From positions 1 to 25,565 of IMG/VR virus record IMGVR_UViG_3300031957_000182: a DNA stretch of 25,565 nucleotides. The stretch is one strand, 5' to 3'. A program made the position numbers and the translations under genes. Positions 3,768-24,044 of this stretch are shown here, one piece after another (positions within the stretch are counted from its first letter, which is position 1; each line of letters starts with the position of its first letter). The notes beneath the pieces were generated by a model, which was not told where the DNA came from, ran no database searches, and saw only the letters and a list, made by a program, of their open reading frames with translations. The stretch comes from a virus.

Positions 3768-4670
3768 TTAGTAATCCTTGGTACAAATAATAACATCTGC
3801 ATATTGCACATCAAAATCCATAGCCGTCCCAGTAAAGGCTAAAGTGCCAGCACCGTGGGTGTGTTCTTCATTATCACCAATACTTTTTGACCTGCCCACA
3901 TTAGGGTCTGTGGCACTTGCTGCAGAGGTTGGTCTTTGAATATCATATTCATTATCAAAGCCACCACCTGCAGTTTTTACTGCTGAAAAAGTACTAGCTC
4001 CTACAGTTCCACTACCGCTTGCGTTATTAACAAACTGATAGTGAAAGTGTGATGGCAGTTGACCTTGTGTTATAGCGTGTCCTGCTGTAGAACCAGACAT
4101 AGTACCAGCTGGAGTTCTTGCCGCAAAAACAGAACTAAATGCTGTAGTGCCTGCTGTGCTTCCACCGGACCCACTTACTACTCTTAAAGCTTTATCATTA
4201 ATAGTTTGCTTTGTCCATCCAATAGGTGCCGCTGCTTGATAAAAAAGCATAGAGGTTTCAGGAGCAAAGCCATCAAGCTTTACAGAGTTTGTTCCATCAA
4301 AAGCAACTAATGCTGGAGTGCTTGGATAAATAGTTTCAGAAGTTGTTCCAGATTTTAATACAATGTTTTTATCGCCTGTTGTTTCATTGTTAACAAAGTA
4401 AACTTTTTCAGAAGCAGGGGCAACAACTGTACAATCAGCAGTCAAAGCTCCCGTAAATCTTAATGCCATGTTTCTTGATTGGTCAGCAGTTCCGTTGTTA
4501 GCAGTAAGGGTTGCAGATGTTAGACCATCAACACTTATAGTTTCATAACCAGCAACCGCCTCGTCAACTATGTCAATAGTATTTTCATTTAATCGCAACC
4601 CCCATGTGTTAGCGTTTTCACCGTCACCTTGCTTTTCTAATCTAATTCTTGATGTATATGAAGAAGCCAT
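3768..4670 (-). CDS. Tail fibre protein with collar-type C-terminal domain
   Basis: A 300-residue fibre protein. The N-terminus (YTSRIRLEKQGDGENANTWGLRLNENTIDIVDEAVAGY, about 5-42) is a familiar virion-attachment segment of marine-phage fibres. A beta-rich shaft follows. The C-terminal half begins MLFYQAAAPIGWTKQTINDKALRVVSG (from about 140) and carries two histidine-rich motifs, LPSHFHY (about 205) and EEHTHGAG (about 267), like the metal-binding His motifs of tail-collar fibres such as T4 gp12. It ends in an aromatic tail (YADVIICTKDY). It probably binds the host surface. AGGA lies eight bases before the ATG. The upstream neighbour is a small holin-like gene and the downstream neighbour begins at the stop codon. 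Fibre identity is confident; the receptor is unknown. Confidence 0.85.
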   Translation of the reverse strand: MASSYTSRIRLEKQGDGENANTWGLRLNENTIDIVDEAVAGYETISVDGLTSATLTANNGTADQSRNMALRFTGALTADCTVVAPASEKVYFVNNETTGDKNIVLKSGTTSETIYPSTPALVAFDGTNSVKLDGFAPETSMLFYQAAAPIGWTKQTINDKALRVVSGSGGSTAGTTAFSSVFAARTPAGTMSGSTAGHAITQGQLPSHFHYQFVNNASGSGTVGASTFSAVKTAGGGFDNEYDIQRPTSAASATDPNVGRSKSIGDNEEHTHGAGTLAFTGTAMDFDVQYADVIICTKDY

Positions 4671-4899: not shown

Positions 4900-4911
4900 T
4901 ACACTACAAAG
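4887..4911 (-). terminator. Weak hairpin after the first C1q-like gene, possible terminator
   Basis: Six-base arms (CTTTGT and ACAAAG) enclose a 13-base loop and are followed on the coding strand by GGTTTTATT. The 5' arm overlaps the stop codon region of the upstream gene. The stem is short and the T-run interrupted, so termination would be partial at best. Confidence 0.3.
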
Positions 4912-5386
4912 TTCTTTCTAATTTTACAAAATCAAAGTTATTTCTTGACGGAGTAGTAACCATAAAAGCACCACCAGACACAGAATTAAGTCTTTTTATT
5001 CGAACCTCTACAGTATCATTTGCATTTAACTCGACTGTTTTTTTCAGGGTAGGTGCAATATAATTATTACCATCTCTTCTTCTAAGATAACCAGTTGAGG
5101 TTGCTGCAATTCTTGTTGTACCGTTTTTTAAAAATTCTAATTCACATGTATATCTATAGTTGGTCGTTCCAGCATTATCTTGGATTCCTAGGGAAGTATT
5201 AATTTCATATAATCCTGATTCAGAAACTGTAACTACTCCAGAAGAAACACTATAAATATCATGTCCAAAATCTAACTTCCACGAATCAAGCGTAATAAAA
5301 GATGTTGAATCAACAACCGTAAACGCAGTGTAATAAAAGCTTGCTGCTTTAACATCTGTAGAAGGCGTTCTTCCTATATATGACAT
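4904..5386 (-). CDS. MSYIG-anchored C1q/TNF-like jelly-roll tip protein (third copy)
   Basis: A 160-residue beta-sandwich protein starting MSYIGRTPST. The order of strand motifs fits a C1q/TNF-like jelly roll: VVTVSESGLYEINTSLGIQ (about 52-70), a YRYTCELEFLKNGT strand, LKKTVELNANDTVEVRIKRL (about 114-133) and the closing NNFDFVKLERTL. These motifs line up one for one with the next two upstream genes, so the three are diverged paralogues. C1q-like domains usually trimerise and bind surface ligands, so this is likely a receptor-binding tip. The gene lies two bases beyond the stop of its upstream paralogue and is followed by the holin promoter. Fold assignment is by eye. Confidence 0.75.
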   Translation of the reverse strand: MSYIGRTPSTDVKAASFYYTAFTVVDSTSFITLDSWKLDFGHDIYSVSSGVVTVSESGLYEINTSLGIQDNAGTTNYRYTCELEFLKNGTTRIAATSTGYLRRRDGNNYIAPTLKKTVELNANDTVEVRIKRLNSVSGGAFMVTTPSRNNFDFVKLERTL

Positions 5387-5388
5387 AA

Positions 5389-5868
5389 TTAAATAACCGT
5401 CTTTTGCAGCTGTATAAAATGGAGGTTACACATATTAGCTACTGTAGTTGCATTACCAGATACAGTGCTTATTCTTCTAATAAAAACCTCAATCTCATCG
5501 TCTTCTTCAAGTTGATATAATCTACTATACGAAGCATTCATAAAGTAATTTTGTTGCTGCGTACTTGCCCTAATGTGTCCCCCATAAAATGCACCTATCT
5601 CTGTCCCGTTTTTCTTGAGTGTAATCCAAGGCTGGTATCTATAGTTAGATGTTGTTCCTGTTATTGTTAATGATATATGTATTTCATATAAACCAGGTTG
5701 ACCAACAGTAACCGTACCCGAAGACAGGCTGTATATGTCATCAGCAAAATCTTCAGACCAAATACTTAATTTAGTGTCGCTTGAAGAGTTACAACTAGTT
5801 CCGCCAGTAGTATCACTATAACTAGCAAATCTTAAAGACCTTCCAGGATTAGACCCTATATATGACAT
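5389..5868 (-). CDS. MSYIG-anchored C1q/TNF-like jelly-roll tip protein (second copy)
   Basis: A 159-residue paralogue of its two neighbours, starting MSYIGSNPGRSLRFASY. Corresponding motifs are WSEDFADDIYSLSSGTVTVGQPGLYEIHISLTI (about 37-69), YRYQPWITLKKNGTEI, YQLEEDDEIEVFIRRI (about 117-132) and the final CNLHFIQLQKTVI. Loop sequences differ strongly from the other copies while the strand framework is kept, as expected for alternative ligand-binding tips on a common fold. The neighbouring copies lie 2 bases downstream and 6 bases upstream. A role in host binding is inferred from fold, position beside the fibre chaperone and the shared N-terminal peptide. Confidence 0.75.
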   Translation of the reverse strand: MSYIGSNPGRSLRFASYSDTTGGTSCNSSSDTKLSIWSEDFADDIYSLSSGTVTVGQPGLYEIHISLTITGTTSNYRYQPWITLKKNGTEIGAFYGGHIRASTQQQNYFMNASYSRLYQLEEDDEIEVFIRRISTVSGNATTVANMCNLHFIQLQKTVI

Positions 5869-5874
5869 TTTATA

Positions 5875-6348
5875 TTAACCCGCTTCTAATTTTATAAATG
5901 CTAAATTACATTGTCCACTTAATGCTTTAAGTGTATTTGAGTCAGTTGCAGAGGTTGTACGTCTTACACGAAGCTGTATAGTATCTCCTTTTTCTAATGA
6001 ACTAATTCTTGATAGCCTAGTCTGTGTTTCTTGCGCACCAGAATTATTTCTAATATAACCGCCCTTTATAGCCCATTCAGTAATAGATGTATTCTTTGTG
6101 TATTCTACTTCTACACCTAAACGAAGACCACTATCAGCATTAAAAGATAAAAGAGAATCAATTTTGTAATCTCCTTTTTCGTTTATTGTAAATATACCAC
6201 TAGAAGATGTATATGTACACAAGCTAGAAGAAAAATCCTCGTTCCAATTGTTAATTGTAATAAATGTAGTTGCTGTAGTTAATACATCCGCATCAGTTGT
6301 AAAGCTTGCAGCCTTACTATTTGTAGTTGTTTCTCCTATGTAAGACAT
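5875..6348 (-). CDS. MSYIG-anchored C1q/TNF-like jelly-roll tip protein (first copy)
   Basis: A 157-residue member of the three-gene C1q-like set, starting MSYIGETTTNSKAASFTT. The framework motifs are present: WNEDFSSSLCTYTSSSGIFTINEKGDYKIDSLLSF (about 35-69), RLGVEVEYTKNTSI, ISSLEKGDTIQLRVRRT (about 114-130) and the closing CNLAFIKLEAG. It shares N-SKAASF with the third copy (VKAASF), suggesting these two are closer in their N-terminal part. It lies immediately after the fibre-assembly chaperone gene (four-base gap), and trimeric tips commonly need such a chaperone. Fold and role are inferred. Confidence 0.75.
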   Translation of the reverse strand: MSYIGETTTNSKAASFTTDADVLTTATTFITINNWNEDFSSSLCTYTSSSGIFTINEKGDYKIDSLLSFNADSGLRLGVEVEYTKNTSITEWAIKGGYIRNNSGAQETQTRLSRISSLEKGDTIQLRVRRTTSATDSNTLKALSGQCNLAFIKLEAG

Positions 6349-6352
6349 TTAA

Positions 6353-6754
6353 CTATCCGTTTAAAACATCTGGTTTTGTTGGCCATGTAACAGATTCAGG
6401 AAAAGAAGATTGACTAGGAACATCTAAAAGATTTTGTCTATATGTTTCTACCTCTGTTTGTTGTGATGAGCTTAATCCAGCCCAGCGTAATGGGTTAGTA
6501 ACAAAAGGGTCAACATCTTCCATTAAAATATTATTTCTTTTCTTTCTAATGCTATATGCTTTTTGTTCTGTTGTTCGAACATCAATGCTTTCAGATGTTC
6601 CATCACTATTAATTTTATTATGATTATTATTAAGTGCGTTCTGCCATTGGTCTATAGTTAATTCTATATTAGGCTCTGGAATAGTCCTATGAATTTCTTT
6701 AGTGTAGTAACCCTTAAGAATATTATTTTCGTCTATGTGTGCAAATATACTCAT
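6353..6754 (-). CDS. Tail fibre assembly chaperone-like protein
   Basis: A 133-residue protein. The C-terminal half (RKKRNNILMEDVDPFVTNPLRWAGLSSSQQTEVETYRQNLLDVPSQSSFPESVTWPTKP, about 69-129) matches the pattern of phage tail-assembly chaperones: R-x-x-R-N-x-L-L, a short loop, W-x-x-Y-R-Q-x-L-x-D-V/I-P, then F-P-x-x-V-x-W-P. The N-terminal part (FAHIDENNILKGYYTKEIHRTIPEPNIELTIDQWQNAL) is the usual partner region holding a small beta unit. Such proteins help fibres or tips fold and trimerise and are not always in the final virion. It sits exactly between two gp53-like and three C1q-like tips, so it could serve both groups. Confidence in the family is good. Confidence 0.8.
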   Translation of the reverse strand: MSIFAHIDENNILKGYYTKEIHRTIPEPNIELTIDQWQNALNNNHNKINSDGTSESIDVRTTEQKAYSIRKKRNNILMEDVDPFVTNPLRWAGLSSSQQTEVETYRQNLLDVPSQSSFPESVTWPTKPDVLNG

Positions 6755-6755
6755 T

Positions 6756-7085
6756 TTAAATTCCTACCGCAAACCAAGAATACGAACCAGTTGCTGCCGT
6801 ATCTATATTAGTCCAGCTTGTTGCTCCTGGGTCACTAGTTCCACATATGTTAGCTGTTTGATTTGTTCCGTCTGTTCTATGCCCCATTGCCCTAAAGCAA
6901 GCAGTTGGAAATGCTACAGGCCAAGTAATGCTTTGACCCGATGAGCTAGTCAACGAAGCTTTTCCCCACTGAAAAATAAAACCATTAGCAAATTTAATAT
7001 ATCCAGAGGTAGCACCAGAAAAAGCAGGAAAAAGAGTTCCTGGGTCTACAAGACTTGATTTTGTATCCGAACCTATGTATGACAT
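6756..7085 (-). CDS. MSYIG-anchored gp53-like fibre tip (second copy)
   Basis: A 109-residue tip protein starting MSYIGSDTKSSLVDPG. From about residue 28 it has the gp53-like C-terminal fibre fold: GYIKFANGFIFQWGKASL, then SITWPVAFPTACFRAMGH, a TNIDTAATGSYSWFAVG end. In this family the I-x-x-x-N-G-x-I-x-Q-W-G opening and the W-F-A-V-G ending are standard for compact trimeric receptor-binding domains. The upstream neighbour is a paralogue with about half of the positions identical by eye. It ends one base before the chaperone gene. The domain name is from family knowledge; the receptor cannot be told. Confidence 0.8.
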   Translation of the reverse strand: MSYIGSDTKSSLVDPGTLFPAFSGATSGYIKFANGFIFQWGKASLTSSSGQSITWPVAFPTACFRAMGHRTDGTNQTANICGTSDPGATSWTNIDTAATGSYSWFAVGI

Positions 7086-7086
7086 T

Positions 7087-7422
7087 TTAATTTCCTACTG
7101 CTATCCAATTATATGTTCCATCTGTTGCTACATCTATATTTGTCCAGTTAGATGCTGATGGTTCTGTATTACTACAAATTTTACCTGTTTGATTAGATGC
7201 TGGTGTTTTAAATCCTACTGCTCGAAAACAACTAGTAGGAAAGGTTACAGGCCAAGTTAATGTAGTTGAGCCTGTGCTTAACACAGCAAAGCCCCATTGT
7301 ATAATAAAACCATTTTCATATTTTATATAGGCATTTACTGTTGGACTGCCGCCATCACCAGTAAAAGTATCTATAAGATTTCTGTTTCCAGCAAAGGCAG
7401 GCTCCACTCCTAAATAAGACAT
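7087..7422 (-). CDS. MSYLG-anchored gp53-like fibre tip (first copy)
   Basis: A 111-residue protein starting MSYLGVEPAFAGNRNLIDTF, then a gp53-like domain: AYIKYENGFIIQWGFAVL, LTWPVTFPTSCFRAVGFK, NWTNIDVATDGTYNWIAVGN. It pairs with the next gene, keeping the framework and differing in the surface strands and in the N-terminal linker. The ATG overlaps the previous stop (TAATG), and GAGG lies eight bases upstream inside the previous gene, so translation is coupled. Likely a small fibre tip or distal adhesin. Confidence 0.8.
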   Translation of the reverse strand: MSYLGVEPAFAGNRNLIDTFTGDGGSPTVNAYIKYENGFIIQWGFAVLSTGSTTLTWPVTFPTSCFRAVGFKTPASNQTGKICSNTEPSASNWTNIDVATDGTYNWIAVGN

Positions 7423-7751
7423 TAGGTAACCTCTAAGCGGCTTAGTGTAACATCAGCAGAAGAGGCAGTATCAGACTGCACAATTACAACATCATTTGGT
7501 TCTAACACTACCTTTTGATTTCCACCCACAACAACTAAAGAACTTCCTGGAGGAATTGGTGCGTCTTTCACTAAATGAATTTTAGATGCGCCTCCATCAT
7601 TAATTTTAACATCAACAGTAATTTGACTTGTAATAATATTTGCAACTGTTAAGCCAATGATTGTTGCTGATGTACTTGCTGGGCAAGCATAAACAGATAC
7701 TTCTGCTGTGCCTACAGATGAAGCGGTTGATAATTTAAATGAATTAGCCAT
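7422..7751 (-). CDS. Small beta-rich virion-type protein (109 aa)
   Basis: A 109-residue protein starting MANSFKLSTASSVGTAEVSVYACPASTSATIIGLTVANI. The repeating strands, the central HLVKDAPIPPGSSLVVVGGNQKVVLEPNDVVIVQSD (about 59-94) and the ending SADVTLSRLEV match a small protein I know from fibre regions of marine phages, with no assigned function. The KDAPIPPG-x-x-L-x-x-x-x-G-x-x-K-x-V-L-E-x-x-D block is the most recognisable part and suggests a compact beta-sandwich. The ATG has no close Shine-Dalgarno: it follows TATAATATTACT directly, so the mRNA may be leaderless. It precedes the MSYIG tip array and overlaps its first gene. Confidence 0.75.
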   Translation of the reverse strand: MANSFKLSTASSVGTAEVSVYACPASTSATIIGLTVANIITSQITVDVKINDGGASKIHLVKDAPIPPGSSLVVVGGNQKVVLEPNDVVIVQSDTASSADVTLSRLEVT

Positions 7752-7757
7752 AGTAAT

Positions 7758-7786
7758 ATTATATCCTAAAAGTTAGCCTAATGCAA
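7758..7786 (-). promoter_or_regulatory. Candidate promoter giving a leaderless start for the 109-aa gene
   Basis: TATAAT (7758-7763) is preceded by 17 bases and TTGCAT (7781-7786; TTG matches the consensus). The -35 lies in the last codons of the mini-fibre gene. The ATG at 7751 is only six bases from the -10, so transcription would start at about the start codon. Confidence 0.4.
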
Positions 7787-8456
7787 TGGCAAAAGCTACA
7801 GCCGCAGCATTTGCGTTTGAAATTGAAGTAGCTATTGTTGCTGACAATGTTGCACGAGCAGTGTTACTATTGTTAATAGACGTAGCCATTGTGCTTGAAA
7901 CATTTGCAGCAACAACTGATACCGCATTAATACGAGTGTTAACAGATGTAATAGCTGCCGTTCTATTATTAATAGACGTAGCCATTGTTGCTGACAACGT
8001 ATTAATTTTAGTTTGAAGTGTAGCAGAAGTTCCTACACTTGCTCCGGCAGTAATGCCTGTAAGGTTACTACCATCACCATAAAAAGCAGCAGCAGTAACA
8101 TTACCAGTTACTGTAATACCGCCTGTAATATCAATATTACCTGTACCAGTAATATCATTACTATTTAATCCAAGGTCTGTACCCATAGATATATTACTAC
8201 CTGAATCACCAAGAGTAATTGTTATACCTGTTGTACCACGTATCTCACCATTGACCTCCATAATTAAGTCAACGCTGTTTACACCATCACCAATAATAAC
8301 ATCTGCAGTAGTATCACCCAAAGAAATATCACCGCCAGGATTGGTAATAGTTAAATTACCACTAGCATCAGTTTCAATCTTTGCGTCTACAGTTCCGCCA
8401 CTATCCTTAAATTCAATCTTTCGGGACGCTGGGGTAATAAGAACATCATCGCTCAT
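7773..8456 (-). CDS. Mini-fibre protein sharing repeats with the giant fibre
   Basis: A 227-residue protein. Residues 1-115 are a beta-rich fibre head (MSDDVLITPASRKIEFKDSG..., DISLGDTTADVIIGDGVNSVDL) of a kind common in marine-phage fibres. Residues 116-135 hold TGNVTAAAFYGDGSNLTGI. Residues 137-227 are LSATMATSINN-type repeats nearly identical to those of the 1654-aa fibre, including the 50-residue unit. The ending (NANAAAVAFAIALG) has no globular or chaperone-like tip, so it looks like a stub generated from or feeding the long fibre. Its ATG overlaps the tailspike stop by four bases (ATGA). It might be a shorter fibre needing one of the small tip proteins encoded next; that is inference. 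Confidence 0.8.
   Translation of the reverse strand: MSDDVLITPASRKIEFKDSGGTVDAKIETDASGNLTITNPGGDISLGDTTADVIIGDGVNSVDLIMEVNGEIRGTTGITITLGDSGSNISMGTDLGLNSNDITGTGNIDITGGITVTGNVTAAAFYGDGSNLTGITAGASVGTSATLQTKINTLSATMATSINNRTAAITSVNTRINAVSVVAANVSSTMATSINNSNTARATLSATIATSISNANAAAVAFAIALG
7785..8045 (-). repeat. Fibre repeat block in the mini-fibre, copy of the giant-fibre repeats
   Basis: The block encodes LSATMATSI, NNRTAAITSVNTRINAVSV and NVSSTMATSINNSNTA units. At the DNA level it closely matches 11700-12360. The flanking sequence encoding FYGDGSNLTGIT (about 8040-8100) is also near-identical to about 12355-12420, with only scattered mismatches. This indicates duplication or gene conversion between the two fibre genes. 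Confidence 0.85.
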
Positions 8457-10909
8457 TTGAGCCTACCTCCTAATCTTCTTTTTCTTTGAGTAAAAGAATT
8501 TTTAATATTTAAAATACCACTAGCATTAACTGTACTAAGATTGCCCATGCTAAACATAGGATTATCAGGCGCTCTGTCTAAAAATACATTAAAGTTTTTT
8601 ACATAATAACCTTCAGTTGCATTGTTGCTTGTTGACCAAATTCCTACCTTGTAATATCTACTATAACTTTCTGGCTCAATAGTAATTTGTTTTTCTTCGT
8701 AAGCACTATCAAAAGCGGATGAATATTGTGCATTAACTCTTTTTCCCCGTAAGGGTCGATTTGTTGTAGCACTAAACTCTAAGGCATTTTCTTCGTGCGC
8801 AGACCTAGTATCGTGTGCCAATAAATAAGGTCTAGTCCCGCTAAATCCACTTACACCTTTTACTTGACAAGTAATTCTGGCTGTTGCCCCAGCTGGAATA
8901 TAGATAGTTTCACCAAACATAGGATAAGAACTGCTATCATGTCTTCGAGTAACATACCAAGCATTTTCAGAAGTATCCCAAACAACTTCTTGATTAAACA
9001 AATACAGTCTCATAGCATCATATTCAAAGTTATGTTCAATGCTCATCATTGACCTACTAGTACCACCATGAAATGCTTGTCCCATTCTAGATTCGCCTGC
9101 CTGTGATGTTCCAGTTTTTTTATCAGGCGAGGGGTGTCCACTTAAATTTGAAAAGAAAGAATCCATCATACCTGCATTCAGTTGTGCAGGACCATCAACA
9201 GTTAGACCATATCTCATGCCAGTAAACTTACATCTCCAAACACTTCCTGGATGTGGCATATACCAACCAAGGCCTCCATAATGGTTTGCATCGGAAATAA
9301 TGTTATGCAGTGCTCCACCAATACCTTCTTCGTATGCAAATATTCTATTTCTATTATTACATCTACTAGCATAACAATAGCTAAAGTCAAACATTTCTGT
9401 TGACCCTTCCATTCTAAAAGCAAAACTTGTTTGACCTGCAGAAATACAACCCATTATAGATGCGAATGGCTCATAGTGCGTGGCTATACCATCATCACCA
9501 TATAATGATATACAACCTCTTGCTACCGCAGACCTGCAGTCATATAGCCAAAGACTACCCCAGTCTCTTTCGTGACCAGGATAATGCTGAATAGTAAGAC
9601 CCTCAACCCATGTACCTCTACTTTGTTGCGGGAATGTTTGTGTATATGTAACAGGATTACTACCATCGCCAATTTTATTCTGCCCTCTTAAAACAACACC
9701 TGTTCTAACATTGTTGTCCGTATCACCAATTAGATGAAACTCTACGTCCTTCAAAACAATGTAGCGATTATAACTACTATTATGAATAACATAAAGATGA
9801 TAATAGTCACTACCGTCTGTAGCAACAGTAGTAAATCTTAAGCCTCTTGAAAGTAAACTAACCAGGCTACCCTCTACAACTTTATAATTTAGAGCAGACG
9901 TAAGTGTCAATGTGTTACCACTAATGCTTTGAATAACATAATCATAACCAGAATTTTGGTCAGTATAATCTGTAGTTCCGTCTGCTTCTGAACGTTTTTC
10001 AATCCATATTCTATCACCTACAGACAATCCACCAACACCATTTAGTGTAATTGTAGTTGCACCACTTGCGGCTTCTGTAGAAACTTTTGCTGCCATCTTT
10101 CTAACCTTAGAATTATTGACATGCGGTTTCAAAGACATCGCTCTGTATACAGTTTCTCCAACAACACTACCAGTAACAGCTGAATTTAAAATCATTCGGT
10201 TGCGGCTATAGTCTATTGAATTGATTGTTCTAATATTTCTATTACTACCAGTCCCAAAAATAATTTGTTGTCCTTTTCTAAACACCTTTGCATTAGAAAC
10301 TATTAGCAATGTTCCATTGGCTTTTGTTACAGTCGAATCTTCTGGCCCAACAAAGTCACGAGTATAAACTGTATTACCATCTATATCGTGAATCCAAAAG
10401 CCTTCGTCTTGAAAACGAATGCCATCATTTTCATCTGTTGATGTGTAATCATATGCATATATCTGAATCCAGTCACCTATAGCAAACGCACTGGCACTTG
10501 CTAGACTGTGTGTACAAACATTACCATCTGTTGCTGCAGTAGTTGTCGTTGTTCCTGCTGGGTCATCCCCCTCAAGAATTAAGTTTGAATTAGCAGAAGA
10601 CTGCACTTGCAATCCATGGTTATCTCCATCTGCTCCATTGAACTGAACTTCAAGATTATCTTTGAAATGAATCGTTCCAGCATTTGCATTTAGATTACCA
10701 TTTATACGAAGTGTTGTATTATTATCGTTTGTAAGGATGCCACCGCTTCCAACAGTAATATCTCCAAAGCCATTAGTAGGAGTTGATAAACCAGTATCAA
10801 TAGTTACAGTATGGTTAATAGTTAAGGTGTCACCATCCGCAGGAGTGTTACCACCCCACGTTGAGCTTGCGCTAAAGTTACCATTCTGTGATGAACTATA
10901 ACTCGCCAT
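8453..10909 (-). CDS. Tailspike with N-terminal G8-like domain and parallel beta-helix
   Basis: An 818-residue protein. Residues about 8-100 (FSASSTWGGNTPADGDTLTINHTVTIDTG..., then ITVGSGGILTNDNNTTLRINGNLNANAGTIHF) follow the G8-type pattern: W-x-G-x-x-P-x-x-G-D-x-x-x-I, V-x-I-D, then a ladder of short strands with G-G-x-L. A Ser/Thr-rich middle leads into turns of a likely right-handed beta-helix (about 380-600; TWVEGLTIQHYPGHERDWGSLWLYDCRSAVARGCISLYGDD, HPGSVWRCKFTGMRYGLTVDG). A C-terminal beta domain ends in a basic tail (TQRKRRLGGRLK). Such spikes often bind or cut surface polysaccharide; acidic residues are abundant but I cannot place an active site. AGGA lies 11 bases upstream of the ATG. 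A perfect sigma70 promoter lies 77 bases upstream. Confidence 0.8.
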   Translation of the reverse strand: MASYSSSQNGNFSASSTWGGNTPADGDTLTINHTVTIDTGLSTPTNGFGDITVGSGGILTNDNNTTLRINGNLNANAGTIHFKDNLEVQFNGADGDNHGLQVQSSANSNLILEGDDPAGTTTTTAATDGNVCTHSLASASAFAIGDWIQIYAYDYTSTDENDGIRFQDEGFWIHDIDGNTVYTRDFVGPEDSTVTKANGTLLIVSNAKVFRKGQQIIFGTGSNRNIRTINSIDYSRNRMILNSAVTGSVVGETVYRAMSLKPHVNNSKVRKMAAKVSTEAASGATTITLNGVGGLSVGDRIWIEKRSEADGTTDYTDQNSGYDYVIQSISGNTLTLTSALNYKVVEGSLVSLLSRGLRFTTVATDGSDYYHLYVIHNSSYNRYIVLKDVEFHLIGDTDNNVRTGVVLRGQNKIGDGSNPVTYTQTFPQQSRGTWVEGLTIQHYPGHERDWGSLWLYDCRSAVARGCISLYGDDGIATHYEPFASIMGCISAGQTSFAFRMEGSTEMFDFSYCYASRCNNRNRIFAYEEGIGGALHNIISDANHYGGLGWYMPHPGSVWRCKFTGMRYGLTVDGPAQLNAGMMDSFFSNLSGHPSPDKKTGTSQAGESRMGQAFHGGTSRSMMSIEHNFEYDAMRLYLFNQEVVWDTSENAWYVTRRHDSSSYPMFGETIYIPAGATARITCQVKGVSGFSGTRPYLLAHDTRSAHEENALEFSATTNRPLRGKRVNAQYSSAFDSAYEEKQITIEPESYSRYYKVGIWSTSNNATEGYYVKNFNVFLDRAPDNPMFSMGNLSTVNASGILNIKNSFTQRKRRLGGRLK

Positions 10910-11075
10910 TGTTTTTCATTTCCTCTATGTCAGCATTTATTTTTATAATCTTATCATTACCATCGTTAGTAACGCTGATGCTACTATTATACTCGCTAAA
11001 CTGCTCTATGTCAATAGTATTATCTTCTTTTAATCTTAACCTAATGTTAAGTGTTCTATACTTAGGAGTCGCCAT
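10896..11075 (-). CDS. Small protein between giant fibre and tailspike (59 aa)
   Basis: A 59-residue protein, MATPKYRTLNIRLRLKEDNT..., ending IEEMKNNGEL. The ATG at 11075 is chosen because GAGGTGG stands just upstream; a TTG four codons earlier is possible but has no better ribosome site. The gene starts within the end of the giant fibre gene (14-base overlap) and ends inside the start of the tailspike gene (14-base overlap). The sequence looks like one beta-strand pair followed by a charged helix, and the function is unknown. It may be an adaptor or chaperone for the flanking fibres. Its codons 25-34 also carry the -35 and -10 of the promoter at 10986-11014. Confidence 0.65.
   Translation of the reverse strand: MATPKYRTLNIRLRLKEDNTIDIEQFSEYNSSISVTNDGNDKIIKINADIEEMKNNGEL
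10986..11014 (-). promoter_or_regulatory. Perfect-consensus sigma70 promoter upstream of the tailspike
   Basis: TTGACA (11009-11014) and TATAAT (10986-10991) on the minus strand are separated by exactly 17 bases, matching the bacterial sigma70 consensus at all twelve positions. The start would be near 10979, giving a leader of about 70 bases before the tailspike ATG at 10909. It is embedded in the 59-aa gene, so transcription of the tailspike and everything downstream could be boosted independently of the giant fibre. Confidence 0.75.
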
Positions 11076-14000
11076 ATTCCACCTCAAATCTTTCGATGTC
11101 TTTTCTTTCTCCAGTAATAAAATAAAAATATTCAGAGTTATTATATACAGTAACTTTGTTGTCTTTTATTTCTTCAACATATAACTTATCATAAATACCT
11201 ACAGGGGTTAGCTGAACTGTAATAGTATCTTCGTGAACCAAGCCTTCCCAATAATCAGGAAGCTCAATTACAGATGAACTAGACTTACCTCTAATATATA
11301 CAGCATGTTCTGGTCCTTCAAGAACGCCATGATGTAAGCGCATTCCGTCTTTTGTCGGGTGTTCAATATCAAATGATTTTGTTACACCTGATATATTACC
11401 ACCAGATACAATATCACCTGAAGCACTAACTATACCCGTAATAGAAATACCGCCAGCAGTAGTGGCGAGTTTAGCAGAGTTGTCGTAATAGAGTGTGACT
11501 GCGCCATTCGCACTAGCGACAAGCATATCTTCGTCACCGTCACTCCGCAGATTAACGCTTGCTCCTCCCTTAATATACAGACTTCCTGTGCCTGTGTCCT
11601 CAATAAAGGAGTGTGACCCATTGTGATAAATCTGCAAGTCAGAGCCAGCACCGAAGATGGCTTTGTTGTTGTCTCCGAATGACAGATTGCCTGTAATTGT
11701 GTCGCCAGCCTTAGAAACTTTATTACCAATAGACGTAGCCATTGTTGCTGACAGTGTAGCAATGGCAGTGTTACTATTGTTAATAGACGTTGCCATTGTG
11801 CTTGAAACACTAGCGGCTAAAACTGATACCGCATTAATACGAGTGTTAACAGATGTGATAGCTGCTGTTCTATTGTTAATAGACGTAGCCATTGTTGCTG
11901 ACAACGTTGCAATAGCAGAGTTACTATTGTTAATAGACGTAGCCATCGTACTTGAAACACTTGCAGCTAAAACCGACACCGCATTAATACGGGTGTTAAC
12001 AGATGTAATAGCGGCTGTTCTATTGTTAATAGACGTAGCCATTGTTGCTGACAATGTTGCAATAGCAGTGTTACTATTGTTAATAGACGTAGCCATCGTC
12101 GCTGACAAAGCTGCACGAGCAGTGTTACTATTGTTAATAGACGTTGCCATTGTGCTTGAAACACTTGCAGCTAAAACAGACACCGCATTAATACGAGTGT
12201 TAACAGATGTAATGGCCGCTGTTCTATTGTTAATAGACGTAGCCATTGTAGAGCTTACAGCTGCAATAGCAGTATTACTATTGCTAATAGACGTTGCCAT
12301 TGTAGAGCTTACAGCTGCAATCTTAGTTTGAAGTGTAGCTGATGTCCCTACACTTGCTCCGGTAGTAATGCCTGTAAGGTTGCTACCGTCACCATAAAAA
12401 GCAGAAGCGGTTACGTTACCAGTTACGTTAATGTCTGAATGAGCAAACAATTTGCCTATATGCATTTCGGATGTTGGGTCGTTGGCTGTATCAAATAATG
12501 TTGTACCTGATGTAATAGTATCAGCTGTTAAGTATCCAGAAGTTGTAATACTGGGGCAATTACGCCACACTGTTTCAACTGCAATATAAGCAAAGTCAGC
12601 CGCAACAACCCACACAAACATGTTACCCGACCCATCATCAATAAGCTTAATAGAAACACGGTCTGCTACGCTGTCTTGGTCATCGTGTTCATACCACCAA
12701 TGACCCCGTGCTGTTCCACTGTTTTGTGCGAAACTAAAATGAACAGTTGCACTGTCAGTAGTTGTACCAAAGTCATAAGCAAAGTAAAGCTTACCTTCTA
12801 CAGCTCCGTGAGTATCGGCATTATTTTCAATCTTACCAAGAAGCCAAGCACCTCCACCAGAGCCAGAGTTCATATCATATTGTCTATAATTAGCAACATC
12901 AGAATCAATATCAACTGCCGATACTTTTGCTCTATTTGCGCTAACAGTTCCTACGACAGCAACACCACCAGAGTTAGTTTCAAATTTTTGAACACCATTA
13001 AAATATAAATCTACAGCACCATTTTGATTTGCAACAATACTTTCTTCACTATTTACGGCTCTAATTCTAATTTTGCTGCCACCGCCATATAAATATAACT
13101 CGCCAGTTGCATTTTGAATAGCACTATTAGTTCCATCATGGTAAATCTGCAAGTCAGAGCCATCACCTAAAATAGCTATGTTGTTATCACCAAAAGACAG
13201 ATTGCCTGTCATCGTGTCGCCTGATTTGGAAACCTTATTGCCAATAGACGTTGCCATTGTTGCTGACAGTGTAGCAATGGCAGTGTTACTATTGTTAATA
13301 GACGTAGCCATTGTGCTTGAAAGACTTGGGGTAAGAGCTGATACTGTAGCAATACGGCTATTAACAGATGTAATAGAATCTTTATTTGTTTTAGTTAAAA
13401 CTGATACTGTAGCAATATGAAGGTTGCTATTATTAATACTCGTAGCCAGCGTACTTGAAACACTATTAATACGAGTGTTAACAGATGTAATAGCATCTAG
13501 ATTTGTTTTAGTTAAAGCTGACACCACAGCAATAGCAGAAACATTATTAACTGCAATAGTATTTACAGAGGTAATAGCCGCCAGGTTAATTGCAATGGTA
13601 GAGGCATTAGCTGCAATAGAGGTATTAGCCAAAGCAATTGCTAGAGCATTAGCAGCAATAGCAGAGGCGTTAACATCTGCAACCACAGAGTTTAAGGCGC
13701 TTACAACATTATTAATAGATGTAACTGAATCTAAATTTGTTTTAGTAAGAACTGACACCGCATTAATACGAGTGTTAACAGATGTAATGGCCGCTGTTCT
13801 ATTATTAATAGATGTAGCCATTGTTGCTGACAGTGTAGCAATAGCAGTGTTGCTATTATCAATAGACGTTGCCATTGTGCTTGAAACATTTGCAGCTAAA
13901 ACTGATACCGCATTAATACGAGTGTTAACAGATGTAATAGCTGCTGTTCTATTGTTAATAGACGTTGCCATTGTTGCTGACAGTGTAGCAATGGCAGTAT

Positions 14001-16026
14001 TACTATTACCAATAGACGTTGCCATTGTGCTTGAAACATTTGCAGCTAAAACTGATACCGCATTAATACGAGTGTTAACAGATGTGATAGCTGCTGTTCT
14101 ATTGTTAATAGACGTTGCCATTGTTGCTGACAGTGTAGCAATGGCAGTATTACTATTACCAATAGATGTAGCCATTGTTGCTGACAATGTTCCAATAGCA
14201 GTGTTGCTATTATCAATAGACGTTGCCATTGTTGCTGACAACGTATTAATTTTAGTTTGAAGTGTAGCCGATGTTCCAGCACTTGCATAAGCTATAGCAT
14301 TAATAGAAGTAATAGCATCTAGATTTGTTTTAGTAAGAACTGATACACCAGCAATTCTAGTTTCTAGTGTACCAGAAGTTCCTACACTTGCATAAGCTAT
14401 GCTATTAATAGAAGTAATAGCGTCTTTGTTTGTTTTAGTTAAAACTGATACTGCATTAATTCTAGTTTCTAGTGTACCAGAAGTTCCTACACTTGCATAA
14501 GCTATAGCATTAATAGAAGCAATAGCATCTAGATTTGTTTTAGTTAAAGCTGAAACATCTGCAATGTTTACAGTATTAACAGATGTTAAAGCTGACACTG
14601 CGGCTATACGAGTTTCTAGGGTAGCTGATGTTCCAGCACTTGCATATGCACTGCCATCTCCTAAGATAGCATTAATAGAGGTTACGGCATCTTTATTTGT
14701 TTTAGTAAGAACTGATACACCGGCAATTCTAGTTTCTAGTGTACCAGAAGTTCCTACACTTGCATAAGCTATAGCATTAATAGAGGTAATAGCATCTAGA
14801 TTTGTTTTAGTTAAAGCTGAAACATCTGCAATGTTTACAGCATTAACAGATGTTAAAGCTGACACTGCCGCAATAACAGACGCATTATTTACAGCTAGTG
14901 TATTTACAGATGTAATGGCTGCCAGGTTAATTGCAATGGTAGAAGCATTAGCGGCAATTGAAGTATTAGCCAAAGCAATTGCTAGAGCATTAGCGGCAAT
15001 AGCAGAAGCATTAACATCATTAACAACTGAATTAATTGCGCTAACTACATTGTTAATAGATGTAATAGCATTAGTGTTTGTTGTTATCTTTGTTTGTAAA
15101 GCTGTGGATACACTTGCAATGCTTGTTGCTAAAGTGTTAGATACTGTAGCAATCCGTGTCTCTAGTGTAGCAGACGTAGCAGCAAAGGTACTAGATACCC
15201 CTGCAATACGAGCTTCAAGTGTAGCTGAAGTTGTTGCAAATGTGCTAGACACTCCTGCAATACGGGCTTCAAGTGTAGCCGATAATGCAACAACTGCAGA
15301 AGCATTAGCCGCAATAGAGGTATTGGCTACGGCAATAGCAGAAGCATTGGCAGCAATAGCAGAAGCATTTACATCTGCAACTACAGAATTAATTGCGCTT
15401 ACAACATTATTAATTGAAGTAATAGCTGAATTAGTACTTGACAAAGCTGCCGAAACCGTGTTAATATGACTTTCCAAAGTCGCAGAGGTTGAAGCAAAGG
15501 TAGAGCTTACACCTGCAATACGAGTCTCCAGTGCTGCCGATACATTAGCAATACTAGTAGCCATAGTCGAACTAACTGTTGCTAAGCCTGCCGATGTAGC
15601 TACTGGTTCACCTGCCAATGTAATATTAGTAGCAGCAACAGTAGTTGCGCTTACTGTACCTGCACTAACAGTTGAAGCATGTAAATTACCAGTGCGTAAA
15701 CTACTAACACTTACATCTTGGAATGTAAGAGTTTCTGCAGTTAATGTATTTGTTGTGATGTTTGTTGCGCTAAGTGTTGATACATTTATACTATTAGTAG
15801 TTAATGAGTTTGGTTGAAAAGTACCCTGAACAGTTAAGTTACCATTAATACTTACATTACCAACAAATGCAGCTTCTGTTTGAGAAAGCTTTAAAGCTGT
15901 ACTATTACCGCCACCATCTTGAACACGGCGTAGTGTTTCGTCTATACCACTATTAGATGCACTAGAATTAATCTGCAATAAATCCTTATAGGTATTTGCA
16001 ATTTTTTTACCTGTTAAGTCTGACAT
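11062..16026 (-). CDS. Giant repetitive tail fibre (1654 aa)
   Basis: The largest gene in the window. Residues 1-70 (TGKKIANTYKDLLQINSSASNSGIDETLRRVQDGGG... LTVQGTF) are a virion-anchoring segment typical of marine-phage fibres. Residues about 70-150 are short beta repeats. About 150-930 are helical-type repeats of 18, 35 and 50 residues. About 932-1045 is a GDTMTGNLSFGDNN...SDLQIYHDG domain. About 1045-1200 is a beta-sandwich-like insertion (GSGGGAWLLGKIENN, GHWWYEHDDQD). About 1203-1430 is GDGSNLTGIT plus more repeats. About 1430-1545 is a second SDLQIYH domain. About 1550-1654 is a C-terminal domain (FDIEHPTKDGMRLHHGVLEGPEHAVYIRGK, LPDYWEGLV) seen at fibre ends. The ATG follows the previous stop directly (TAGATG). 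Such fibres are usually trimeric and host-binding. Confidence 0.88.
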   Translation of the reverse strand: MSDLTGKKIANTYKDLLQINSSASNSGIDETLRRVQDGGGNSTALKLSQTEAAFVGNVSINGNLTVQGTFQPNSLTTNSINVSTLSATNITTNTLTAETLTFQDVSVSSLRTGNLHASTVSAGTVSATTVAATNITLAGEPVATSAGLATVSSTMATSIANVSAALETRIAGVSSTFASTSATLESHINTVSAALSSTNSAITSINNVVSAINSVVADVNASAIAANASAIAVANTSIAANASAVVALSATLEARIAGVSSTFATTSATLEARIAGVSSTFAATSATLETRIATVSNTLATSIASVSTALQTKITTNTNAITSINNVVSAINSVVNDVNASAIAANALAIALANTSIAANASTIAINLAAITSVNTLAVNNASVIAAVSALTSVNAVNIADVSALTKTNLDAITSINAIAYASVGTSGTLETRIAGVSVLTKTNKDAVTSINAILGDGSAYASAGTSATLETRIAAVSALTSVNTVNIADVSALTKTNLDAIASINAIAYASVGTSGTLETRINAVSVLTKTNKDAITSINSIAYASVGTSGTLETRIAGVSVLTKTNLDAITSINAIAYASAGTSATLQTKINTLSATMATSIDNSNTAIGTLSATMATSIGNSNTAIATLSATMATSINNRTAAITSVNTRINAVSVLAANVSSTMATSIGNSNTAIATLSATMATSINNRTAAITSVNTRINAVSVLAANVSSTMATSIDNSNTAIATLSATMATSINNRTAAITSVNTRINAVSVLTKTNLDSVTSINNVVSALNSVVADVNASAIAANALAIALANTSIAANASTIAINLAAITSVNTIAVNNVSAIAVVSALTKTNLDAITSVNTRINSVSSTLATSINNSNLHIATVSVLTKTNKDSITSVNSRIATVSALTPSLSSTMATSINNSNTAIATLSATMATSIGNKVSKSGDTMTGNLSFGDNNIAILGDGSDLQIYHDGTNSAIQNATGELYLYGGGSKIRIRAVNSEESIVANQNGAVDLYFNGVQKFETNSGGVAVVGTVSANRAKVSAVDIDSDVANYRQYDMNSGSGGGAWLLGKIENNADTHGAVEGKLYFAYDFGTTTDSATVHFSFAQNSGTARGHWWYEHDDQDSVADRVSIKLIDDGSGNMFVWVVAADFAYIAVETVWRNCPSITTSGYLTADTITSGTTLFDTANDPTSEMHIGKLFAHSDINVTGNVTASAFYGDGSNLTGITTGASVGTSATLQTKIAAVSSTMATSISNSNTAIAAVSSTMATSINNRTAAITSVNTRINAVSVLAASVSSTMATSINNSNTARAALSATMATSINNSNTAIATLSATMATSINNRTAAITSVNTRINAVSVLAASVSSTMATSINNSNSAIATLSATMATSINNRTAAITSVNTRINAVSVLAASVSSTMATSINNSNTAIATLSATMATSIGNKVSKAGDTITGNLSFGDNNKAIFGAGSDLQIYHNGSHSFIEDTGTGSLYIKGGASVNLRSDGDEDMLVASANGAVTLYYDNSAKLATTAGGISITGIVSASGDIVSGGNISGVTKSFDIEHPTKDGMRLHHGVLEGPEHAVYIRGKSSSSVIELPDYWEGLVHEDTITVQLTPVGIYDKLYVEEIKDNKVTVYNNSEYFYFITGERKDIERFEVEYGDS
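11700..12345 (-). repeat. Second repeat block of the giant fibre (150-bp and 54-bp units)
   Basis: Copies of the GCTGCTGTTCTATTG marker (plus strand) lie at 11861, 12011 and 12215, spaced 150 and 204 bases. The 204-base step equals one 150-base unit plus one extra 54-base unit (18 residues). All units are multiples of three, so copy-number changes keep the frame. Confidence 0.85.
13750..14245 (-). repeat. 150-bp tandem repeats of the giant fibre
   Basis: The marker CTGCTGTTCT occurs at 13791 (variant), 13941 and 14091, exactly 150 bases apart. The 50-residue unit reads NNRTAAITSVNTRINAVSV, then LAANVSSTMATSI, then NSNTAIATLSATMATSI. Confidence 0.88.
14271..14830 (-). repeat. 105-bp repeats of the giant fibre
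   Basis: The marker CATAAGCTAT lies at 14286, 14391 and 14496 (105-base spacing) and again at 14763. The 35-residue unit reads AITSINAIAYASVGTSGTLE then TRIAGVSVLTKTNKD. Thirty-five residues equal five heptads, fitting a coiled-coil shaft. Confidence 0.85.
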
Positions 16027-23636: not shown

Positions 23637-24044
23637 TTAATTACTTAGATTAAACGTAGGGTCTAAGTCTTTAGCATCTTCAACTACCATCTTGATATCG
23701 TCATCAAACAATAGCAAAAGATTTATTCCTTTATAAAAGAATTTGTTCCCTGTATGTTTTCCGTAACACACAAAGTCACCTTCTTTACACCAAGGACCGT
23801 TAGCAAACTTTTTGTCTTTATAAGCTAGGTCGCCAACTTTTAGAACACGACCAACTGTTGTAAGGTAAGCCATGTCCGATTTGGTTGAGTCAGGCAAAAG
23901 GATACCACCCTTAGTTGCTGACTTAACTGATACTGGACGAACAAGGATATGGTATCCAGGGATTCCTGGAAGTGGGTTAGGGTCTGCGATGTCCTCGTCT
24001 GTAATCCATTCATCATTTTTCAAAGCATTAGATGCAACTTGCAT
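23637..24044 (-). CDS. GroES-like co-chaperonin (Cpn10)
   Basis: A 135-residue protein with a GroES-like fold. Residues about 27-55 (GIPGYHILVRPVSVKSATKGGILLPDSTKS) match the GroES start and mobile loop: V-R-P ... then G-G-I-L-L at 46-50, corresponding to the G-G-I-V-L that contacts GroEL. TVGRVLKVGDLAYKDKKFANGPWCKEGDFVCYGKHTGN (about 63-100) covers the strand and roof region, followed by FFYKGINLLLLFDDDIKMVVED, like the final GroES strands. It has an N-terminal extension of about 25 residues (NALKNDEWITDEDIADPNPLP) and a C-terminal tail. It lies between portal and scaffold, as does a phage that needs chaperonin for capsid folding (compare T4 gp31). AGGAG precedes the ATG. Confidence 0.88.
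   Translation of the reverse strand: MQVASNALKNDEWITDEDIADPNPLPGIPGYHILVRPVSVKSATKGGILLPDSTKSDMAYLTTVGRVLKVGDLAYKDKKFANGPWCKEGDFVCYGKHTGNKFFYKGINLLLLFDDDIKMVVEDAKDLDPTFNLSN

Follow-up and report, generated by a model that had tools for sequence, protein, structure and literature searches.

The DNA analysed here, referred to as the window, is a 25.6 kb virus record from IMG/VR (IMGVR_UViG_3300031957_000182, 25,565 nucleotides) which contains the structural region of an ocean phage, with the structural genes under discussion located on the minus strand. Its capsid protein shares 52-55% identity with the capsid proteins of the Pelagibacter phages HTVC023P/027P, the Roseobacter phages CRP-901/902 and phage DSL-LC04. 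A preliminary description of this DNA had focused on five small genes with a common start peptide (4904-7422), an interval that stopped short of the likely partner genes, designated here as the connector (7422-7751) and the AIALG-tailed gene (7773-8456). The genes of the region are as follows, the terms "peg" for the start peptide, "tip" and "connector" reflecting the roles proposed below.

11062..16026, minus strand: long stalk fibre, 1654 aa, start MSDLTGKKIANTYKDLLQ; relatives have the MSDLTGKKIANTYKDLLQ N-terminus and the AIALG tail combined in a single protein
7773..8456, minus strand: AIALG-tailed gene upstream of the connector, 227 aa; translated C-terminus AAAVAFAIALG, AIALG codons 7776-7790
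7422..7751, minus strand: connector, 109 aa, candidate socket or coupler; phrog_1276/phrog_26609; upstream of peg genes across phages
7087..7422, minus strand: gp53-like tip 1, 111 aa, MSYLG start; PF21882, E 1.3e-12; peg codons 7408-7422, the start codon overlapping the stop of the connector
6756..7085, minus strand: gp53-like tip 2, 109 aa, MSYIG start; PF21882, E 2.7e-14; peg codons 7071-7085
6353..6754, minus strand: tail fibre assembly chaperone (Phage_tail_APC), no peg; PF16778, E 1.4e-10; PHROG tail fibre assembly
5875..6348, minus strand: C1q/TNF-like tip 3 by profile search, 157 aa, MSYIG start; peg codons 6334-6348
5389..5868, minus strand: C1q/TNF-like tip 4 by profile search and Foldseek, 159 aa, MSYIG start; peg codons 5854-5868
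4904..5386, minus strand: C1q/TNF-like tip 5 by profile search, 160 aa, MSYIG start; peg codons 5372-5386

All five peg genes are intact and nearly identical in another contig, IMGVR_3300032084_000953 (loci L004/L010), which makes an assembly error unlikely. Elsewhere in the window, the LTGKKIANTYKDLLQ start (11062-16026) and the AIALG end (7773-8456) of the stalk region are on separate genes, with an 818-aa gene between them; in close relatives, both termini belong to a single stalk protein. The gene at 3768-4670 carries a different N-terminal module (MASSYTSRIRLEKQGDGENANTWG...), of which the first 100-130 residues are common to more than 100 viral loci and the C-terminal parts vary; this pattern suggests a second fibre anchor of larger size. 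Also, the gene at 23637-24044 is located where HTVC023P, HTVC027P, CRP-901 and DSL-LC04 have a gene annotated as GroES co-chaperonin, an assignment based on position and appearance only.

The ORF translations confirm that the five genes begin alike, with MSYIG in four and MSYLG in one, and that the codons for S-Y-I/L differ among them (TCATATATA twice, TCTTACATA, TCATACATA and TCTTATTTA). No M-S-Y-I/L-G motif was found at other ORF starts of the window. The five genes do not amount to five independent cases of the peptide: the three C1q-like proteins show 30-41% identity to the first of the three and the two gp53-like proteins are 49% identical to each other, so the shared start represents only two lineages, with the peptide inherited within each group of paralogues.

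The preliminary division of the tips into three C1q-like and two gp53-like folds was upheld in full for the latter. The gp53-like_C (PF21882) matches of the two short tips score 53.9 and 48.5 bits, against a curated cut-off of 24.9, and gp53-like tip 2 (6756-7085) was found by profile search to be related to R-type pyocin fibre tips. The C1q-like assignment was supported by profile searches and by Foldseek but stayed below threshold in Pfam, where C1q (PF00386) reaches E 0.02 and 15.4 bits on 5389-5868 (cut-off 23.7) and gives no match to the other two tips, and where BclA_C reaches a sub-threshold E of 0.007. Profile searches of solved structures returned RANKL and C1q-related factor (E 0.03-0.25) for the C1q-like tips, and the top Foldseek matches were nearly all from the TNF/C1q family (E about 1e-5, TM 0.5-0.6), with a query model of low confidence (pLDDT 62). 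The candidate fold is the C1q/TNF jelly-roll. In the structure models, residues 1-10, which comprise the peg, have a pLDDT of about 30. When sequence relatives of the C1q tips were sought in viral contigs, one near-identical contig and nothing else was found. The C1q-like tips are, however distantly, 30% identical to the C-terminus of an S-SKS1 protein; this 1187-aa annotated baseplate wedge subunit (locus L259, 4887-8450) lacks an MxYIG start and terminates in the C1q-like knob of the window tips. Some long peg fibres also carry this knob at the far C-terminus, in view of which the window tips look like stripped-down fibres, each with a peg, a short linker and a knob.

With sizes of only 109-160 aa, the five products might be thought to be free or accessory proteins, acting in decoration, in lysis or as secreted factors, rather than tips of the virion. 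We consider this highly improbable, given that the same start peptide is common to full-length annotated tail fibres, that the genes belong to the fibre cassette, as does a tail-fibre chaperone gene, and that gp53-like_C and C1q-like domains occur as the C-terminal tips of long fibres.

The peptide also occurs well beyond this array. Tail-fibre proteins of marine phages commonly begin with M-[A/P/S/G]-[Y/F]-[I/L/V]-G, and xxP often comes next. Using a motif-independent set of 79 new loci, fetched via a different neighbouring gene and restricted to ORFs of at least 80 aa, we found M.Y[IL]G at the start of 9 distinct ORFs; most permutations of these residues gave none and one permutation gave 4 near-identical ORFs. 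A scan of viral contigs with one codon form of M.YIG..P returned at least 120 stretches, compared to 43 in all for the scrambled M.IYG of equal composition. A chance origin of the motif was rejected on this scrambled control, since 104 of the 111 distinct M.YIG..P matches listed are real-looking ORF starts, versus 4 of 28 for the control. Furthermore, the presence of the peptide on unrelated folds was substantiated: once the first eight residues are disregarded, the peg proteins among the matches listed fall into about 20 N-terminal contexts, a number that includes a few singletons, probably chance ORFs.

The proposal that the peptide is maintained by selection was likewise borne out, at the level of the protein. 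Among 65 distinct peg starts adjoining connectors, the entropy at residues 1, 3, 4 and 5 is 0, 0.39, 1.0 and 0 bits, and beyond residue 8 it is about 2.6-3.6 bits; the peptide is thus more conserved than its neighbouring residues. The codons of each conserved residue vary among these starts, and conservation of the peg at the DNA level was rejected on this variety. It is this combination of low entropy, freely varying synonymous codons and unrelated domains behind the peptide that argues for protein-level selection. In one close relative (L359), MSY[IL]G is kept before a different protein body, with nucleotide identities to the window of 0.77 in the connector, 0.60 in the peg codons and 0.47 beyond. 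Residue 2 is A, P, S, G or T in 161 of the 163 peg starts, a bias that is weak as a sign of Met removal given that such residues occur at 74% of other gene starts.

It could still be argued that the shared start is simply inherited, or that it serves expression or DNA exchange, as a start-site context or a recombination seam, and not docking. The paralogy within each fold group would fit such an origin, as would the switch in gene content exactly at this seam. Nevertheless, the motif spans unrelated domains and is conserved as protein with varied codons, and the DNA conservation of the peg codons is no better than that of the connector, leaving this explanation with little probability.

The genetic context of the peg is itself conserved, in the order of a stalk ending in ...A-I-A-L-G-COOH, a connector of about 110 aa and then the peg-bearing fibres or tips. 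The window connector matches two function-unassigned families, phrog_1276 and phrog_26609 (E 1.6e-10 and 1.4e-12), whose profiles match 12 of 13 and 11 of 13 aligned connector members, respectively; comparison of the connector with the C1q profile revealed no relation. Connector homologues were found in 92 loci examined, and 83 of these loci also contain a peg ORF. From the opposite direction, a connector is located on the same strand within 6 kb upstream of all 50 peg ORFs that have at least 5 kb of upstream sequence, and of 89 of the 92 that have at least 3 kb. The strongest single association found is the AIALG tail on the gene preceding the connector: a C-terminus of the form A[IVLM]ALG?$ is present in 70 of 100 distinct genes upstream of the connector compared to 5 among 3378 other ORFs, all five of which resemble genes of that type.

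Because the first set of peg loci had been fetched by the peg pattern and was hence biased, the junction test was repeated on loci retrieved through the connector only. For the connector of locus L105, the next gene starts with the peg in 68/68 cases and the preceding one ends in the tail in 76/76, the 68/68 set representing one close clade since the fetched connectors are at least 87% identical. With the window connector, the corresponding values are 49/74 for the peg and 78/82 for the tail; the following genes here include several near variants (MAYQG, MAMIG) and about 14 with an M[AP]IS[KR]I start. Among named phages, connector homology places the junction in HMO-2011, CRP-13, HTVC019P, HTVC026P, HTVC115P, vB_OspM_OC, GN1 and Melnitz, as well as in two Rhizobium phages, including RHph_TM30; S-TIM5 has the same arrangement with the start peptide MPHIG. 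The order AIALG gene, connector, peg gene is thus found across unrelated phages, podophages and myophages included. The annotated gene directly after the connector lacks a canonical peg in HTVC010P and CRP-143, where a peg gene comes later, and S-SRM01 has the connector with no peg gene beside it. MxYIG fibre genes were absent from the stretches examined of the nearest named phages by capsid (HTVC023P, HTVC027P, CRP-901, 023Pt_psg01 and DSL-LC04), although the 023Pt_psg01 stretch does have a connector; the cassette is therefore not predicted by capsid kinship.

Analysis of the closest relatives of the window (loci L359-L368), with connectors 81-86% identical in protein to that of the window, allowed us to follow the exchange of genes at this junction. 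Their stalk starts with LTGKKIANTYKDLLQ, ends in AVAFAIALG and is followed by the connector, after which the next gene differs by locus (611, 275, 364 or 452 aa), with one or two further peg fibres downstream. Across this boundary, nucleotide identity between close relatives drops: it is about 0.75 within the connector and about 0.45 immediately inside the gene that follows. Genes thus swap behind a conserved connector, and the peg often stays. A connector is usually followed by one or two peg genes, and the five in the window are the maximum among the loci examined.

Two other features of these cassettes were observed. In six loci (L361, L364, L366, L368, L382 and L391), an M[AP]IS[KR]I start replaces MxYIG directly after the connector, and may possibly be another class of peg. 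In L376, L379, L396, L405 and HMO-2011 (L260), MxYIG genes enclose tandem arrays that encode numerous short proteins (about 120-160 aa), which have a KAW-type motif internally and GDLA at the C-terminus.

Taken from the sequence comparisons above, our favoured reading, which we hold with some confidence, is that MSYIG/MSYLG is the N-terminal docking peg of a modular tail-fibre system with interchangeable tips, probably seated on the connector or the stalk. The stalk fibre would terminate in a hydrophobic C-terminal tail (...ALAIALG), which the small connector, encoded next, would cap or extend; the fibres or tip domains encoded further downstream, probably trimers, would then plug into the stalk/connector assembly via the peg. 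In the window, each distal part would consist of little more than a peg, a short linker and a knob (gp53-like in two cases and C1q/TNF-like in three), with the chaperone gene located among the tip genes, so that several alternative tips could occupy equivalent sites. If these tips bind receptors, their simultaneous or alternative use might possibly broaden host range.

The connector or the stalk end would be the likeliest site of docking because it is the component common to otherwise different phages. The M[AP]IS[KR]I starts behind some connectors, including close relatives of the window connector, count against an exclusive YIG socket, and we give moderate weight to a direct binding of peg and connector. 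The peg may instead dock on another component of the virion, such as the tail hub, the baseplate or an adaptor protein, with the connector merely a syntenic neighbour in the fibre cassette. Such an arrangement would accommodate the peg genes that lie 1-5 kb from the connector with intervening genes, and the connectors that precede other start peptides; it is harder to reconcile with a connector common to peg phages of very different tail types, whose hubs and baseplates are expected to differ, and we regard it as unlikely. PDB searches with the connector, the peg fibres and the tips returned no entry showing this peg docked.

Docking on the connector or stalk, if correct, would give a role to phrog_1276/phrog_26609 and provide two short terminal peptides as sequence markers for the mostly unannotated receptor-binding tips of ocean phages. 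It would also account for the exchange of unrelated adhesin folds between phage families with no redesign of the virion. A tentative extension, which we put forward as a possibility, is that two-ended peptide coupling is general to phage fibres, with an ALAIALG stalk tail and an xYIG peg joined by a dedicated connector (phrog_1276/26609). A standard socket would then be common to unrelated podo- and myophages, and tip genes could be exchanged between families or stacked in arrays.

Short N-terminal docking peptides have been described or proposed before in K1-5/SP6-like, KP32, KP34 and related phages (review and modelling in PMC6872550), so that the kind of mechanism is already known. In the K1-5/K1E/SP6, KP32 and KP34 viruses, a conserved N-terminal peptide of 7-11 residues or longer is found on otherwise unrelated second receptor-binding proteins (RBPs) (PMC6872550), and the K1-5/SP6-like, KP32 and KP34 peptides have been proposed to attach the RBPs, of which there are several per phage, to an adaptor or to the first RBP (PMC6872550). 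A published description of the present motif, the AIALG tail or the role of the connector was not found in the open-access papers searched, which is weak evidence of novelty. The peg resembles the K1-5/KP32/G7C-type anchor-branched RBP systems in being a short conserved N-terminal peptide on divergent proteins. Unlike the K1-5/SP6, KP32 and KP34 peptides, which have a different motif and are group-specific, it spans podo- and myophages. The partner also differs, being a T4 gp10-like domain in K1-5, KP32 and KP34 and, here, a separate small connector plus a C-terminal tail on the preceding protein. No T4 gp10-like domain was detected at the Pfam threshold in the window proteins 7422-7751, 7773-8456, 8453-10909 and 11062-16026, a sub-threshold Gp10_C match (E 0.07) being found in 3768-4670; lacking such a docking domain, the system is not assigned to the anchor-branched type.

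Closer in organization are HMO-2011, CRP-13, HTVC019P and HTVC026P, which share the order of AIALG-like structural gene, connector and MxYIG fibre, with a chaperone and further fibres downstream; in these HMO-2011-type/pelagiphage modules the peg genes number one or two and are mostly longer, whereas the window has five very short ones. The C1q/TNF-like tip domains of the S-SKS1 baseplate wedge C-terminus and of BclA_C may share the fold predicted for the three tips of about 160 aa, which are of low identity to characterised C1q/TNF members and owe the fold to a model of modest confidence. The two tips of about 110 aa are homologous in sequence to gp53-like_C (PF21882) and the R-type pyocin fibre tips; elsewhere gp53-like_C forms the far end of a long fibre, whereas in the window it stands almost alone behind the peg.
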